36,047 nt of DNA from Myxococcota bacterium (GCA_023150875.1 JAKLKC010000063.1:1-36047), one strand, 5' to 3'; counted from the stretch's first letter, positions 22,261 through 30,243 are shown. Notes: a model not told the origin generated them from the letters alone. Made by a program: numbers and translations.

Positions 22261-22704
22261 CTACTCCGCCAGGAAGCGGTCCAGGGCCGACCGCAGGGCC
22301 GGCCAGCCGTCGCCGATCACCCGCTCCGCCATGGGGTAGAGCATCCCCTCCTCCTTCACGTTGTGCTGCTGGATCAGCATCAGCAGCGTGTCCCCCTGGG
22401 AGAGGGCGTCGGCGTGGCGTCCCGCCGCCACCGCCTGCCCGATGCCGTCCAGCACCGCCCGCATCTGCACGTGCTCCGAGCGCATCACCGCCGTGGGGCC
22501 CACGTCCCGCATCCCCGTGGCCTCCTCGAAGGCCGGGAACAGCACCTCCTCCTCCATCGCCAGGTGGCGGCGCATGGCGTGGTCGAACCGGGCCCACGCC
22601 TCGTCGACCCCCTCGCCCCGGTCGATGCGGTCCTCGAGCTCGGCCCAGCGGTCGTCGCACTCGCCGTGGTCCCGGGTGAACATCGTCACGATTCCCTCGC
22701 TCAC
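22261..22704 (-). CDS. Hemerythrin-domain protein, 147 aa
   Basis: The GTG at 22704 is preferred because GAGGAGG sits 5 nt upstream; an internal ATG at 22683 lacks one. The four-helix HHE pattern is complete: FTRDHGECDDRW, FDHAMRRHLAMEEEVLFPAFE, MRSEHVQMRAVL and LIQQHNVKEEGMLYPMAE supply the His and Glu ligands of a non-haem di-iron centre. Proteins of this type bind O2 or NO, or repair iron-sulphur clusters under nitrosative stress (YtfE-like). The gene is divergent from a TetR-DUF2249 regulator that heads an operon containing NnrS, which supports a role in nitric-oxide or oxygen sensing and protection. A 16-bp palindrome lies between the two start codons. Confidence 0.9.
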   Translation of the reverse strand: MSEGIVTMFTRDHGECDDRWAELEDRIDRGEGVDEAWARFDHAMRRHLAMEEEVLFPAFEEATGMRDVGPTAVMRSEHVQMRAVLDGIGQAVAAGRHADALSQGDTLLMLIQQHNVKEEGMLYPMAERVIGDGWPALRSALDRFLAE

Positions 22705-22758
22705 GCTTGCCTCCTCGGCCCGATCTCCCCGCGGGTGGGCCTCGTCGTGGGCGCCTAT

Positions 22759-22774
22759 GTTATCATCCGATAAC
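22759..22774. promoter_or_regulatory. Perfect palindrome in the hemerythrin/TetR divergent region
   Basis: GTTATCatccGATAAC is a perfect 6-bp inverted repeat with a 4-nt spacer, standing out as AT-rich in very GC-rich DNA. It ends 14 nt before the TetR ATG and begins 55 nt before the hemerythrin GTG. It could be the operator of the adjacent TetR regulator. The 5-4-5 geometry (TTATC-N4-GATAA) also resembles FNR/DNR-type sites, but not their consensus bases. Confidence 0.65.
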
Positions 22775-22787
22775 CTGTGAGGCCACG

Positions 22788-23903
22788 ATGAACCGCCGCG
22801 CCACCACCGAGGAGCGCCAGGACCAGGTCGTCCGGGCGGTCCTGGACCTGCTCGCCGACACCCCCGCCGACCGCATCGGCACGCGGGACATCGCGCGGCG
22901 GGTGGGGATCTCGCAGCCGGCCCTGTTCCGCCACTTCCGCTCCCGGGACGCGGTGGTGCGGGCCGCCGTCGCCTGGACCCGGATGGAGCTGGAGGCGACG
23001 GCGAGGCGGGCCCTCGGCGAGGGAGGGACGCCCCGGGGGCGGGCCGAAGCGCTGGCGCGGGGGGTGATGGAGCACGCCCGGGCCTTCCCGGGGGTGCCCC
23101 GCCTGCTCTTCTCCGGCGCCGCCGACGCCCAGGGGCGCGCGTTCTCCCAGGAGTTGCGCCAGCTCCCCCTGGGCCTCCGTGCGGTGGCCGCCGAGCTGGT
23201 CCGGGACGCCCAGCGGGAGGGGGCGGTGCCCCCCTCGGTGGACGCCACCCAGGCGGGCGCCCTGTTCGTGGCCCTGGTGCAGGGCTCCCTCCTCCAGTGG
23301 ATCCTGGAGGACCGCCGGGGGGCACCCGCGGACCCCGCGGCGCTGGCGGGGCTGTGGTGGGCGGGGCTGGAGGCGGGGCACCCCGCCTCGGCGCCCGGGG
23401 CGCTCGGACCTCCCCTCCCCGGGCCCCGGGGGAGCGCCGTGGACGCCGATCCCCTGCCCACCCTGGACGTCCGCCCCCTCCTGGCCCGGGGGGAGGAGCC
23501 CCTGGACGCCATCCTGGAGGCGGTGGGGCGGCTCGGGGGCGGGAGCATGCTCACGGTGATCGCCCCGTTCCGGCCCACTCCCCTGCTGCTCCTGCTGGAG
23601 GCCCGGGGGTTCCGGGTGGAGGCGCGGCGGATGGGGGATCTCTTCGAGGTGGAGTGCGCCGGCCCGGGATTCCCGGCCCCCATGGACCTGACGGACCTCC
23701 CCGCCCCGGAGCCCATGGAGCGGGTGCTGACGGTGGCGGCGGGGCTCCCCCCCGGCGGCTGCCTGGCGGCGCGGATCCCCAGGGTGCCCTACCCCTTGCT
23801 GGCCCACCTGGAGGGGCGGGACCTGGTCCCCCGGGTGCGGGAGGCCGCGGACGGCACGGCGCTGCTGCACGTCCGGCGGCGGCCCCTGGAGGGGGCGGAG
23901 TGA
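22788..23903 (+). CDS. TetR-family regulator fused to two DUF2249-like domains, 371 aa
   Basis: The ATG at 22788 follows GTGAGG. Residues 1-200 are a TetR repressor: DNA-binding helix-turn-helix in TRDIARRVGISQPALFRHFR, SRDAV, then a helical ligand domain. From about residue 224 a DUF2249 domain is evident (LDVRPLLARGEEPLDAILEA, LTVIAPFRPTPLLLLLEARG, DLFEVE). From about 300 a second, shorter one follows (MERVLTVAAGLPPGGCLAAR, IPRVPYPLLAHLEGRDL). DUF2249 domains often accompany hemerythrin, nitrite/NO and haem-copper oxidase genes. Fusion to TetR is unusual and suggests that the DUF2249 part is the sensor. Its stop overlaps the next start (GTGA). Confidence 0.88.
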   Translation: MNRRATTEERQDQVVRAVLDLLADTPADRIGTRDIARRVGISQPALFRHFRSRDAVVRAAVAWTRMELEATARRALGEGGTPRGRAEALARGVMEHARAFPGVPRLLFSGAADAQGRAFSQELRQLPLGLRAVAAELVRDAQREGAVPPSVDATQAGALFVALVQGSLLQWILEDRRGAPADPAALAGLWWAGLEAGHPASAPGALGPPLPGPRGSAVDADPLPTLDVRPLLARGEEPLDAILEAVGRLGGGSMLTVIAPFRPTPLLLLLEARGFRVEARRMGDLFEVECAGPGFPAPMDLTDLPAPEPMERVLTVAAGLPPGGCLAARIPRVPYPLLAHLEGRDLVPRVREAADGTALLHVRRRPLEGAE

Positions 23904-25222
23904 GCGTCTCACCCTCCGCCGGCCTCCACCTCGATCAGGCGCCCCCCCTGGGAGTCCCGGCGTCGTTCTTCCTGACCGCCCCGTGCGCCGTGGTGGCCGC
24001 GGGGGCGCTGCTGGCGGTGGGGGGCGAGGGGGTCCTGACGACGCGGTGGAGCCTCCAGACCGTCGCCCTGGCCCACCTGGGGACCTTGGGGCTGCTGGGG
24101 ACGGCGATGCTGGGGGCCCTATACCAGCTCGTGCCGGTGGTGGCGGGGGTCCCGGTGCCGGCGATCCGCCTCGCCCGGTGGGTCCACGGCGCGTGGACGC
24201 TGGGGGTGACGGGGCTGATCGCCGGGCTCCTGGGGCCCCATCCCCATGTGCTCCACGGGGGCGTCTTCCTGCTGCTGGCGTCGCTGCTCGCCTTCGTCGT
24301 GCCGGTGGGGATCGCCCTCGCCCGCGCCCCCTCCCGCCACGAGAGCGTCGCGGGGATGCGGGTGGCCCTGGGCAGCCTGGTCCTGGTCGCGGGGCTGGGC
24401 CTCGCCATGGCCCACGGCTTCGCCGGCTTCCCCTTCCCCGGCCCCCGCCCCCTGTGGAGCCAGGTCCATCTGGGGATCGGGCTGATGGGCTGGGTGGGCG
24501 GGATGATCGCCGCGGTGTCGTGGCAGGTGCTTCCGATGTTCTACCTGGCGGCGCCCTTCGACCCCCGGGGCACCCGGGCGACGCGATGGGCGATCCTCGC
24601 GGGGGTCCTGCTGCCCATGGGGGTGCTCGCCATGGAGAAGGCGGGGCTGACGGGGAGCGGGTGGGGATCGGCGGAGCGCCTGGCGGCGCTGGCGGCGCTG
24701 CCGGCGGCGGTGGCGGTGTGGGCCCTCCATCCCCTGGGATGCCGGCGGAGCCTCGCGGGGAGGAGGCGCCGCCGCGCCGACGCCAGCCTCGGGGGCTGGA
24801 AGGCCGGCTTGATCGTCGCGCCGGCGCTGCTGCCCCTGGGGGCGGCGGGGGTGCTGCTGGCGGATCCGCGCTGGGGCCTCCTCTTCGGCTGGCTCGCGAT
24901 CTGGGGATGGGCCGGCGCCATCCTCCACGGGATGCTCACCCGCGTCGTCCCCTTCCTGGTGTGGTTCCACCGCTTCGCGCCCCACCTGGCCACGCGCCAG
25001 CCGTCGATGCGGGACCTCTTCCCCGACGAGCGGGTGGGGTGGGTGCTCCGCCTCCACTCCGCCTCGGTGGCGTCGGGGGCCCTGGCCATCATCCTGGGGG
25101 GCGACGTCCTGCCGCGTTTCACCGGGCTGCTGCTGGTGGCCCTCGGGATCGTGCTCCTCCACGCCCTCGCCGCGACGTTGCTCCGGCGCCCCGTCCCGCT
25201 GCCTTCTTCGAGAGTCCCATGA
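23900..25222 (+). CDS. Polytopic membrane protein of an NO/haem-copper gene cluster, 440 aa
   Basis: The start is GTG, sharing GTGA with the stop of the regulator gene. The protein has about 11-12 hydrophobic segments. Conserved-looking His residues sit at the membrane face: LAHLGTLGLLGTAMLGALYQ, LHGGVFLL, QVHLGIGLMGWVGGM and ILHGMLTRVVPFLVWFHRF. The pattern recalls subunit-I-like relatives of haem-copper oxidases and the NnrS family, in which His residues in helices bind haem, but I cannot place it firmly in either. Its stop overlaps the ATG of the NnrS gene (ATGA), so three genes are translationally coupled. It probably acts with NnrS in NO or copper/haem handling at the cytoplasmic membrane. 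Confidence 0.75.
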   Translation: MSVSPSAGLHLDQAPPLGVPASFFLTAPCAVVAAGALLAVGGEGVLTTRWSLQTVALAHLGTLGLLGTAMLGALYQLVPVVAGVPVPAIRLARWVHGAWTLGVTGLIAGLLGPHPHVLHGGVFLLLASLLAFVVPVGIALARAPSRHESVAGMRVALGSLVLVAGLGLAMAHGFAGFPFPGPRPLWSQVHLGIGLMGWVGGMIAAVSWQVLPMFYLAAPFDPRGTRATRWAILAGVLLPMGVLAMEKAGLTGSGWGSAERLAALAALPAAVAVWALHPLGCRRSLAGRRRRRADASLGGWKAGLIVAPALLPLGAAGVLLADPRWGLLFGWLAIWGWAGAILHGMLTRVVPFLVWFHRFAPHLATRQPSMRDLFPDERVGWVLRLHSASVASGALAIILGGDVLPRFTGLLLVALGIVLLHALAATLLRRPVPLPSSRVP

Positions 25223-26442
25223 CCGACCCGCGCCCCCTCTCCCCCTCGCTCCTCGCCGCCGCCCCCCACCGGGGGATGTTCCTGGCCGGCGCCACGGCGG
25301 TGCTGGCCACCATGACCTGGTGGACCCTGGACCTGGCCGCGGTCCGCTACGCATGGGGGTGGATGCCGAGGCCGGACGTCCCCGCGGGCTGGGCCCACGC
25401 GTTCTTCACCCAGTACGGGATGCTGGGACCGTTCATCTTCGGCTTCCTGCTGACGGTCTTCCCGCGGTGGATGAACCAGCCCGCCCTCGCCAGCCGCCGC
25501 TTCCTGCCGGTGTTCGCGGGTATCTTCTCGGGATACCTGCTGGCCCAGGTGGGGCTGGTGTGGGCCCGCCCGCTGGTGGTGATCGGGGTGGCGTCCATGC
25601 TGGCGGGCTGGATCGCCGGCCTGTCGGCGCTGTTCTCGGTGCTGCGGGCGGACCGCTACCGCAACCGGTCGGCGGTGTCGTGCTTCGCGGCCCTCGGCTT
25701 CGGGGCGGCGGGGATCGCCCTGTTCCTGGCGTTCCTGCTGGGGGCTCCGGCCTATCTGGGCTGGGCATCCCTCAAGGTGGGGACCTTCGGGCTGCTCCTG
25801 CCGGTGTACTTCACGGTGGCCCACCGCATGGTGCCCTTCTTCACCAACGTGGTGGTGCCGGGCTACCGGATGGTGAGGCCCACCTGGTCCCTGCCGGTCC
25901 TGTGGGCGCTGGTCCTGCCCCACCTGGCGCTGGAGCTGCTCCAGGAGCCCCGGTGGCGCTTCGTCGCCGACCTGCCCCTGGCCCTCTTCTTCGGGTGGCA
26001 CTGGCTGGCCTGGCAGCCCTGGAAGGCCCGCCGCCCCGGGCTGCTGGCGGTGCTCCACCTGGCCCTGGCGTGGCTGCCGGTCGCCTTCGCCCTGTTCGCC
26101 GCCGACAGCCTGCTCGCGCTGCTCTCCTCCGGCGGGAGCCCCCTCGGGAGGGCGCCGGTCCACGCCCTCACCGTCGGCTTCTTCGGGTCGATGCTGGTGG
26201 CGATGGTGACCCGGGTGACCCACGGCCACTCCGGGCGCCCCCTGGCGATGGGGCCGGTGCCCTGGTACACCTTCCTGGCCCTCCAGGCGGTGGTGATCGC
26301 CCGCCTGGCGGCGGAGGCCACCCCGGCGGGCTCCGCCGCCTACGTGTTCGCCGCCGCGGGCTGGGTGGTGGCCTTCCTGCCCTGGGCCGCCCGCGCCGTC
26401 TGGATCTACCTGACCCCCCGCCGGGACGGGCAGCCTGGGTGA
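25219..26442 (+). CDS. nnrS: NnrS family membrane protein, 407 aa
   Basis: The ATG overlaps the preceding stop by 4 nt. The N-terminal APHRGMFLAGATAVLATM and the late motif HALTVGFFGSMLVAMVTRVT, HGHSGRPL (about residues 315-343) are the hallmarks of NnrS, a 12-helix haem- and copper-containing membrane protein linked to denitrification and protection from nitrosative stress. Another His-rich segment (VYFTVAHRMVPFFTNVV) fits the family. Length is normal. It closes an operon of TetR-DUF2249 regulator, membrane protein and NnrS. No nitrite or nitric-oxide reductase gene is in the window, so a protective role is favoured over respiration. Confidence 0.93.
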   Translation: MTDPRPLSPSLLAAAPHRGMFLAGATAVLATMTWWTLDLAAVRYAWGWMPRPDVPAGWAHAFFTQYGMLGPFIFGFLLTVFPRWMNQPALASRRFLPVFAGIFSGYLLAQVGLVWARPLVVIGVASMLAGWIAGLSALFSVLRADRYRNRSAVSCFAALGFGAAGIALFLAFLLGAPAYLGWASLKVGTFGLLLPVYFTVAHRMVPFFTNVVVPGYRMVRPTWSLPVLWALVLPHLALELLQEPRWRFVADLPLALFFGWHWLAWQPWKARRPGLLAVLHLALAWLPVAFALFAADSLLALLSSGGSPLGRAPVHALTVGFFGSMLVAMVTRVTHGHSGRPLAMGPVPWYTFLALQAVVIARLAAEATPAGSAAYVFAAAGWVVAFLPWAARAVWIYLTPRRDGQPG

Positions 26443-26517: not shown

Positions 26518-26730
26518 ATGCGCACCACCCTCGACCTGCCTGAGGATCTGCTCCGGGACCTGCAGCGAGTTACGGGCGCGCCGACGCGACGAGAGGCGGT
26601 GGTCGTCGCCCTCGAGGACTTCATCCGCCGCCAGCGCCTCCTGCGGGTCGCAGCCGCCGCAGGGCAGCTCGACTTCGACGTGGACCCAGGGGAGCTGAGG
26701 GCGACGGGGGCGCGACGGCTGGATGGCTGA
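26518..26730 (+). CDS. VapB-type antitoxin, 70 aa
   Basis: The ATG at 26518 follows GAGGAGG. The product starts MRTTLDLPEDLLRDLQRVTG and continues RREAVVVALEDFIRRQRLLR, the ribbon-helix-helix-like VapB form (M-R-T-T-[LV]-D-L/I) found with PIN-domain toxins. The C-terminus (AAAGQLDFDVDPGELRATGA) matches the toxin-wrapping tail of the family. The gene seems intact, but its partner is not: the overlapping ATG at 26723 opens a PIN frame that stops resembling PIN after 13 residues. The antitoxin may be an orphan able to neutralise toxins elsewhere. Confidence 0.85.
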   Translation: MRTTLDLPEDLLRDLQRVTGAPTRREAVVVALEDFIRRQRLLRVAAAAGQLDFDVDPGELRATGARRLDG

Positions 26731-26763
26731 ACGGGTCCTGGTCGACACGTCGGCGTGGATCCC
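26723..26763 (+). pseudogene. Remnant of a VapC PIN-domain toxin gene
   Basis: An ATG overlapping the vapB-like stop opens MAERVLVDTSAWI, the exact start of a PIN toxin including its first catalytic Asp (V-D-T-S). After this the frame continues into unrelated, Pro/Arg-rich sequence and ends near 26878. The remaining about 110 residues and three further acidic residues are missing. The junction lies near 26763, about 110 bp before the next gene, so the toxin was removed by a deletion. Confidence 0.8.
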
Positions 26764-26874
26764 CTGCTCTCGTAGGAGTGAGATCCCCCACCCTCGGTCC
26801 GGCCCCTTCCCGGTACGCGGAGGGCAGGCACCGGGACGGACCGTGGAGTACCATCCCCCGCCTGGAGGAGCGAG

Positions 26875-29608: not shown

Positions 29609-29836
29609 ATGACGACCACGGTATCCAGCAAGGGACAGGTGACCATCCCCAAGGACCTCCGCGACCGGCTGGGAATCCAGCCGGGGACGCTCTTGAAGTT
29701 CGAGGTTGAGCAGGGCCGGCTCGTCGCATGCAAGGTCCAGCCGGTGGATCCCTTCGCACGGTGGGCGGGCGCCTTCGCGGATGGGCGCCGGAGCGACGAT
29801 CTGCTGGCCGCCCTCCGAGGGGACCCGGAAGGGTGA
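29609..29836 (+). CDS. AbrB/MazE-type antitoxin, 75 aa
   Basis: MTTTVSSKGQVTIPKDLRDR, LGIQPGTLLKFEVEQGRLVA is the swapped-hairpin AbrB/SpoVT fold (S-x-K-G-Q-[VI]-T-I-P-K). The C-terminus (DPFARWAGAFADGRRSDDLLAALRGD) resembles the PIN-toxin-binding tail (W-x-G-x-F) seen in VapB of the AbrB type. The stop overlaps the GTG of the toxin (GTGA). No Shine-Dalgarno sequence is present, which fits leaderless translation from the promoter at 29575-29602. Confidence 0.92.
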   Translation: MTTTVSSKGQVTIPKDLRDRLGIQPGTLLKFEVEQGRLVACKVQPVDPFARWAGAFADGRRSDDLLAALRGDPEG

Positions 29837-30243
29837 TCACTGCGGTCGACACGTCGGTGCTGTTCGACTTCCTCTTGGGCGATCCGCGGCATGGGGGGCC
29901 CAGCACGTCGGCGCTGCGACGGGCTTCGGCGGAGGGCCGGCTCGTCGCCTGCGCCCCCGTGTGGGCCGAGACCTGGGCCGGGATTGGCGCTCCGGCGCTG
30001 GGGGAGGCCCTCGACGACCTGGGAGTCCACTTCGACCCGATCCAGAAGGAGGCGGCCCGACTGGCTGGGGAGTTGTGGGCGGAATACCGGGCTCGTGGAG
30101 GGGGTCGGCGAGACCGGATCGTCGCCGACTTCCTGATCGGGGCCCACGCCCTATCCCAGGCGGATCGCCTGCTGACGCGGGACCGCGGTTTCTACCGGAA
30201 CTACTTCGACACGCTGGTGGTGCTCGCCCCCGCCGCTTCCTGA
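29833..30243 (+). CDS. PIN-domain (VapC-type) toxin, 136 aa
   Basis: The GTG at 29833 overlaps the antitoxin stop. The four acidic PIN positions are present: D6 in AVDTSVLFDFL, E46 in PVWAETWAG, D94/D99 in RRDRIVADFLIGAHA and D117 in TRDRGFY. Together they bind Mg2+ for RNA cleavage. The length is normal and the frame is intact, so the toxin is likely active. VapC toxins cut specific tRNAs or rRNA; the target cannot be read from sequence. Confidence 0.92.
   Translation: MITAVDTSVLFDFLLGDPRHGGPSTSALRRASAEGRLVACAPVWAETWAGIGAPALGEALDDLGVHFDPIQKEAARLAGELWAEYRARGGGRRDRIVADFLIGAHALSQADRLLTRDRGFYRNYFDTLVVLAPAAS

Follow-up and report, generated by a model that had tools for sequence, protein, structure and literature searches.

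Why would a TetR-type regulator carry two DUF2249 domains, and what does it control from its place between a hemerythrin gene and a membrane protein gene? This question was raised by a 36,047-nucleotide stretch of Myxococcota DNA (the window), in which a preliminary description placed a hemerythrin gene divergent from an operon of three overlapping genes, coding for a TetR repressor with two DUF2249-like domains at its C-terminus, a polytopic His-bearing membrane protein (here called M2), and NnrS. The group was interpreted as a nitric oxide (NO) stress module run by a one-protein sensor-repressor. The gene arrangement held with small refinements of the coordinates, and the features are as follows.

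22261 to 22704, minus strand: hemerythrin-like (HHE) di-iron protein, 147 aa, transcribed away from the fusion gene (PF01814, E = 3e-17)
22759 to 22774, no strand assigned: predicted operator GTTATC-ATCC-GATAAC in the divergent promoter, 13 bp before the fusion ATG
22788 to 23903, plus strand: TetR-DUF2249-DUF2249 regulator, a fusion of 371 aa (both Pfam families score above their cut-offs; relatives share the architecture)
22842 to 22967, plus strand: TetR_N helix-turn-helix, residues 19-60 (PF00440, E = 1e-9; the model resembles the SlmA and FadR TetR-family structures)
23460 to 23639, plus strand: first DUF2249 domain, residues 225-284 (PF10006, 45 bits)
23682 to 23858, plus strand: second DUF2249 domain (PF10006, 34 bits)
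23900 to 25222, plus strand: M2, polytopic protein with a predicted haem-copper-oxidase-like fold, 440 aa, no Pfam family (Foldseek; invariant His)
25219 to 26442, plus strand: NnrS, 407 aa (PF05940, E = 2.6e-59, above cut-off)

A recurring TetR-DUF2249 fusion and its neighbors

The genes on the plus strand overlap by four bases at each junction: M2 overlaps the fusion stop codon (GTGA at 23900-23903), and nnrS overlaps the M2 stop codon (ATGA at 25219-25222). The hemerythrin gene starts with a GTG codon preceded by AGGAGG, and its product has the expected metal-ligand pattern (H13, H47, E51, H78, H114, and E118), which was invariant in 24 homologues.

A Pfam scan placed DUF2249 in two stretches of the fusion protein (E = 1.4e-19), both scoring above the curated PF10006 cut-off of 29.5 bits, and gave no DUF1858, Rrf2, σ54-activator, or CRP/FNR domain. 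A whole-genome profile search indicated that these two domains are the sole DUF2249 copies in the 6.9-Mb host genome. We then considered an AlphaFold2 model of the fusion that was built with 31 homologues (mean pLDDT 91). The N-terminal 190 to 195 residues, approximately, have a TetR fold that matched SlmA, FadR, and EthR in structure comparisons. The helical TetR C-terminal domain, of the dimerization and ligand-binding type, is complete in the model (helices 82-195) and could itself carry a ligand site. The SlmA entry in the PDB is labeled "NO factor," in which NO refers to nucleoid occlusion and not to nitric oxide.

The fusion was present in 38 of the 379 sampled genomes of the host's phylum; 37 copies were whole, and one (G088) was apparently split between two contig ends. 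A further copy was identified in a Planctomycetota metagenome-assembled genome (MAG; L024). All 31 aligned members matched both TetR_N and DUF2249, and three of the 37 whole fusions (G022, G216, and G295) had the first DUF2249 domain only. The doubts that had been attached to the fusion (DUF2249 missing from the C-terminus, a sequencing frameshift, or absence from relatives) were removed by the Pfam matches and by this distribution. The explanation that an ordinary TetR regulator was fused by chance or artefact has only the commonness of TetR proteins in its favor, and it was refuted by the 38 genomes, the second phylum, and the 31 members with both domains. As for plasmids, we found no copies of the fusion or of M2, and the only matches were to ordinary TetR proteins.

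The gene layout around the fusion was conserved as well. The hemerythrin gene was divergent from the fusion in 30 of the 31 loci examined, and M2 was immediately 3' of the fusion in 28 of the 29 loci in which the contig continues. M2 relatives were present in 78 of the 379 genomes in the phylum sample. In the case of nnrS, which had been regarded as an integral member of the module, 14 other fusion loci with longer flanking sequence lacked the gene. What is conserved, then, is the divergent hemerythrin gene together with the TetR-DUF2249 gene and M2, with nnrS as a local, occasional addition.

A palindrome in the divergent promoter

The region between the hemerythrin and fusion genes contains the palindrome GTTATC-N4-GATAAC. 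It falls inside positions 22705-22787, the region that the preliminary description had proposed for a footprint and in which the palindrome had been missed. The operator consensus ATGTTATC-RNNY-GATAACAT was present in the hemerythrin/fusion intergenic region of 31 of 31 loci, with an exact core in 29 and one mismatch in two. When all 39 fusion loci were counted (38 in the phylum and one in the Planctomycetota MAG), the palindrome was exact in 37 and had one mismatch in 2; within the phylum it was exact at 36 of 38 loci, and G184 and G218 had one mismatch each.

The chance expectation for the palindrome in the window was 0.01. With up to one mismatch allowed, the 6.9-Mb host genome contained this single site; hence, the search gave one operator and no wider regulon in that genome. 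An exact site anywhere in the genome was found in 37 of the 38 fusion genomes (G218 being counted through sites away from its fusion locus) versus 5 of the 341 others (Fisher p ~1e-44, not corrected for shared ancestry). In three of the five fusion-less genomes, every site departs from the RNNY core of the fusion loci, and the reversed pattern had matches in three of the 379 genomes scanned. Among relatives with multiple sites (G061, G074, G105, G268, G210, and G078), a non-exhaustive survey of the nearest open frames showed no N-oxide theme; they looked mixed (asparagine synthase coding, dapB, and transporters), and many sites were intragenic. A σ70 promoter scan yielded no match, a result that is uninformative given the high GC content of the region.

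Sister loci served as a natural control. This set consisted of 15 loci in which a hemerythrin gene adjoins M2 and no TetR domain is present; 12 have a stand-alone DUF2249 protein in place of the fusion, and 3 have no DUF2249. The palindrome was absent from all 15 (best match, 9 of 12 positions), and it was exact in two loci that have TetR with a single DUF2249 domain. The promoter of G005, a sister of the fusion-bearing G006, reads AGTATC-CGTT-GATAAG, which may represent a decayed operator.

The M2 tree shows five changes of the TetR label, most simply explained by one gain and several losses, a history that the rooting cannot prove. The operator followed the TetR domain in five of five independent pairs, three of them on well-supported branches, and there was no opposite case; five pairs are too few for significance in a sign test. 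Because the palindrome is present or absent together with the TetR domain across M2 lineages, these comparisons of sequences provided strong evidence for the predicted binding of the palindrome by the fusion's TetR half and for its control of both divergent units. It seems very improbable that the palindrome is bound by some other regulator or is a structural element while the fusion regulates elsewhere, since the site is single in the genome, lies directly 5' of the fusion's own start codon, and tracks the TetR domain across lineages.

We read the fusion as a dedicated autoregulator because the palindrome is found at every fusion locus, is single in the host genome, and is absent from TetR-less loci. 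The proposal of a one-protein sensor-repressor was strengthened by the same pattern, and the fusion is very probably a self-contained protein of this kind. In full, we consider it rather probable that the fusion is a dedicated, autoregulating one-component transcription factor, most likely a repressor, with an input of N-oxide or low-oxygen stress through DUF2249.

For DNA binding, repression, the signal, and the jobs of M2 and hemerythrin, we infer the following scheme. The TetR domain, probably as a dimer, would bind the single GTTATC-N4-GATAAC site lying between its own gene and that of hemerythrin. Control would thereby extend to hemerythrin on one side and to the fusion-M2(-nnrS) operon on the other. 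Input would come through the pair of DUF2249 domains, which have a TusA-like fold and would respond to nitrogen-oxide or low-oxygen stress as conveyed by a ligand, by a partner protein, or by modification with a small molecule. This signal would release the TetR domain from DNA, and hemerythrin and M2 (here also NnrS) would be switched on. The di-iron hemerythrin, the haem-copper-oxidase-like M2, and NnrS might then bind or dispose of a reactive gas.

M2 and the candidate signals

M2 had no match in Pfam or NCBIfam. Its structure model (pLDDT 93.6) has the 12-helix subunit I fold, as judged by Foldseek against cbb3 CcoN, and the best Foldseek matches were cbb3 CcoN (TM 0.70-0.74, E = 7e-7) and NorB (TM 0.53-0.58), at 12-15% identity. 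M2 has in common with this haem-copper oxidase superfamily the predicted fold and invariant His residues on transmembrane helices. However, haem-copper oxidases have six canonical His residues, including the CuB His-His pair on the seventh helix, whereas M2 has five invariant His residues (59, 190, 343, 357, and 386) and lacks the pair. Because the helix expected to bear the pair (helix 222-247, assigned by order only) has no His, the model points to a probable haem protein in which a normal CuB site is missing. The idea that M2 is a relative of NnrS was rejected, as profile comparison detected no similarity.

The NO-stress label was upheld in part. In a Casimicrobiaceae locus (L025), a TetR-less hemerythrin-DUF2249-M2 trio has heme d1 genes (nirJ, siroheme decarboxylase, and cytochrome d1) on one side and cysG on the other, and the trio was also found in another betaproteobacterial MAG. 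In Massilia/Telluria, DUF2249-M2 follows qnorB, and nnrS adjoins (nnrS/qnorB-DUF2249-M2). The G184 fusion locus has qnorB and siroheme decarboxylase genes nearby, and in G287, M2 and NnrS are joined in a single 852-aa protein, a gene fusion that suggests a functional tie between the two. The host genome codes for NirK and two NosZ proteins; neither NorB nor NorC was detected in it. Furthermore, published work ascribes a role in nitrate-respiration control to the Thermus DUF2249 proteins DrpA and DrpB (PMC6282519) and reports that DUF2249 proteins are induced in haloarchaeal denitrification (PMC11218638). On the other side, the fusion was not associated with NorB across the phylum (4 of 38 genomes with the fusion versus 38 of 341 without, p = 1). 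Thus, an NO/N-oxide label is plausible, and the chance that the signal for the fusion is an N-oxide is about one half.

A cue from oxygen or redox state would also suit the cbb3-like fold of M2 and the oxidase genes that adjoin the module in G058. The same dedicated autoregulator might respond to oxygen, redox state, or the respiratory chain instead of NO, with hemerythrin delivering or scavenging O2 and M2 acting as a cbb3-like electron or haem protein. Such a signal would agree with the structural closeness of M2 to cbb3 CcoN, with the G058 module adjoining oxidase subunit I genes, with a fusion that does not track NorB, and with a Myxococcus hemerythrin that shares an oxygen-utilization regulon with cbb3 and hemN (PMC11841059). 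The host genome itself has a cbb3-type oxidase subunit, as identified by sequence. We nevertheless regard this alternative as somewhat unlikely, because TetR-less versions of the module lie within clusters of heme d1/cytochrome d1 and qnor genes, nnrS is in the window, and M2 is fused to NnrS in G287.

How DUF2249 might receive a signal was considered next. The preliminary description had suggested looking for haem or iron in the fusion protein, and the case for either became weaker. Across the DUF2249 part of the 31 members, no Cys or His was conserved (the best column had His in 16 of 31), so direct haem, iron, or thiol sensing by this part appears unlikely. A search by sequence for a solved DUF2249 structure found none. 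The TusA motif is CPxP, with a cysteine, and the corresponding positions in the fusion alignment read APEP or PPEP, with no Cys.

These comparisons also bear on whether DUF2249 is a sensor at all. The TetR C-terminal domain might bind an unrelated small ligand, and DUF2249 might have a separate job (e.g., cofactor or sulfur handling, in line with the TusA-like fold, or M2 assembly), having been fused only through co-expression. The complete TetR C-terminal domain, the weak matches of 11 of the 31 members to TusA, and the stand-alone DUF2249 proteins that precede M2 in TetR-less loci would fit this explanation, but the missing TusA cysteine and the retention of the regulator fusion across many families argue against it, and we consider it unlikely. 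Some lineages keep DUF2249-M2 without TetR, which suggests that DUF2249 has a function beyond gating the fusion regulator.

Returning to DUF2249 as the input module, a more specific proposal can be made, although only tentatively. DUF2249 would be an N-oxide (or linked gas/redox) input domain wired to TetR, and the fusion would represent a new class of N-oxide repressor with a conserved operator. Its targets would be hemerythrin and M2, the latter a haem-copper-oxidase-like protein of non-canonical type that deals with NO where bacteria have no recognized NO reductase.

Known regulators and implications

The nearest described protein to the fusion is DrpB of Thermus thermophilus (DUF1858-DUF2249-DUF2249). 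According to the DrpB study (PMC6282519), this protein likewise has tandem DUF2249 domains behind an N-terminal domain and functions in the control of N-oxide respiration, but its N-terminal domain is DUF1858, it has no DNA-binding domain, and it is thought to act through DnrS/DnrT, whereas the fusion has TetR and a cognate predicted operator. DrpA, a nitrate sensor with a single DUF2249 domain, keeps conserved His residues, as reported in PMC11218638, and the DUF2249 domains of the fusion are without them.

Classical TetR autoregulators (TetR, EthR, and FadR type) share with the fusion the TetR_N domain, the TetR fold (fusion residues 1-195), the divergent layout, and a palindrome 5' of the regulator gene; the fusion differs from them in its two extra C-terminal DUF2249 domains. 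The regulators NsrR, NorR, DNR/NnrR, and HcpR have targets comparable to those predicted here, namely nnrS and genes of the hemerythrin and DUF2249 types that take part in N-oxide metabolism, but they belong to protein families other than TetR and use other DNA motifs, such as gATGyAT-N5-ATrCATc for NsrR and ctTTGcg-N4-cgCAAag for NnrR (PMC1274295).

DUF2249 is widespread, with about 3,500 proteins according to PMC6282519. The domain partners named in the literature excerpts were hemerythrin, response-regulator domains, DUF1858, and P-loop NTPase, and TetR was not listed among them. In agreement with the view that the architecture was undescribed, our search of 5.39 million open-access papers turned up two in which DUF2249 is mentioned and no description of a TetR-DUF2249 protein. 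Because the nearest protein, DrpB, has no DNA-binding domain, the known NO regulators are of other families, and TetR is not among the partners named, we classed the fusion as a variant of the TetR one-component regulator, in which a familiar scaffold has received a new input module, a predicted operator of its own, and unusual targets.

For a purely computational case, the regulatory claim is a strong one, because TetR and the operator stay tied over several apparent losses. DUF2249 turns up repeatedly with denitrification genes, and in the fusion a DNA-binding domain with a computed operator is attached to it, so its input could be read with a simple reporter. The module also draws attention to M2, an unnamed membrane protein family that has the predicted fold of a haem-copper oxidase and recurs together with hemerythrin, DUF2249, NnrS, and NO reductase. 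Since the host has NirK, two NosZ proteins, and no detected NorB, M2, hemerythrin, and NnrS are candidates for handling NO between NirK and NosZ in this bacterium.

Toxin-antitoxin frames and denitrification genes

Two stretches of the window held toxin-antitoxin-like frames:

26519-26775, downstream of nnrS: small ribbon-helix-helix-like (VapB-like) antitoxin frame, then a PIN-like start, identified by eye
29640-30243: AbrB-like antitoxin frame, then a PIN-domain protein (PF01850, E = 4e-12)

By eye, the PIN-like frame of the first stretch reached a stop after about 18 codons and the stretch looked like the remnant of a broken pair; the second was apparently a whole pair. The genome of the window (G000; C118, C95, C147, and C180) carried NirK and two NosZ, and neither NorB nor NorC was detected in it, a sign that the step acting on NO may be missing there.

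DUF2249 proteins and an apparent decayed operator in the phylum

Proteins with two DUF2249 domains in G048 (L018) and G038 (L020) appeared DrpB-like by eye, based on an N-terminal part resembling DUF1858. A NorC-like gene was located near the G038 gene. In the sister lineage G005, which lost the TetR domain, the operator-like site (L170, about 2981) read AGTATCCGTTGATAAG, an apparent decayed operator.

M2 and genes of NO metabolism

In G287, a single 852-aa reading frame (L167:3296-5851) contained M2 and NnrS (PF05940, E = 3e-109, residues 467-846), which tied this unnamed family to NnrS. Betaproteobacterial loci (L027:5192-9457, L030:5353-8832, and L025:4216-10934) contained M2 in two cluster types, nnrS | qnorB-DUF2249-M2 or nirJ-cytochrome d1-hemerythrin-DUF2249-M2-cysG. 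M2 thereby accompanies genes for the reduction of NO and nitrite, although it carries no annotation.
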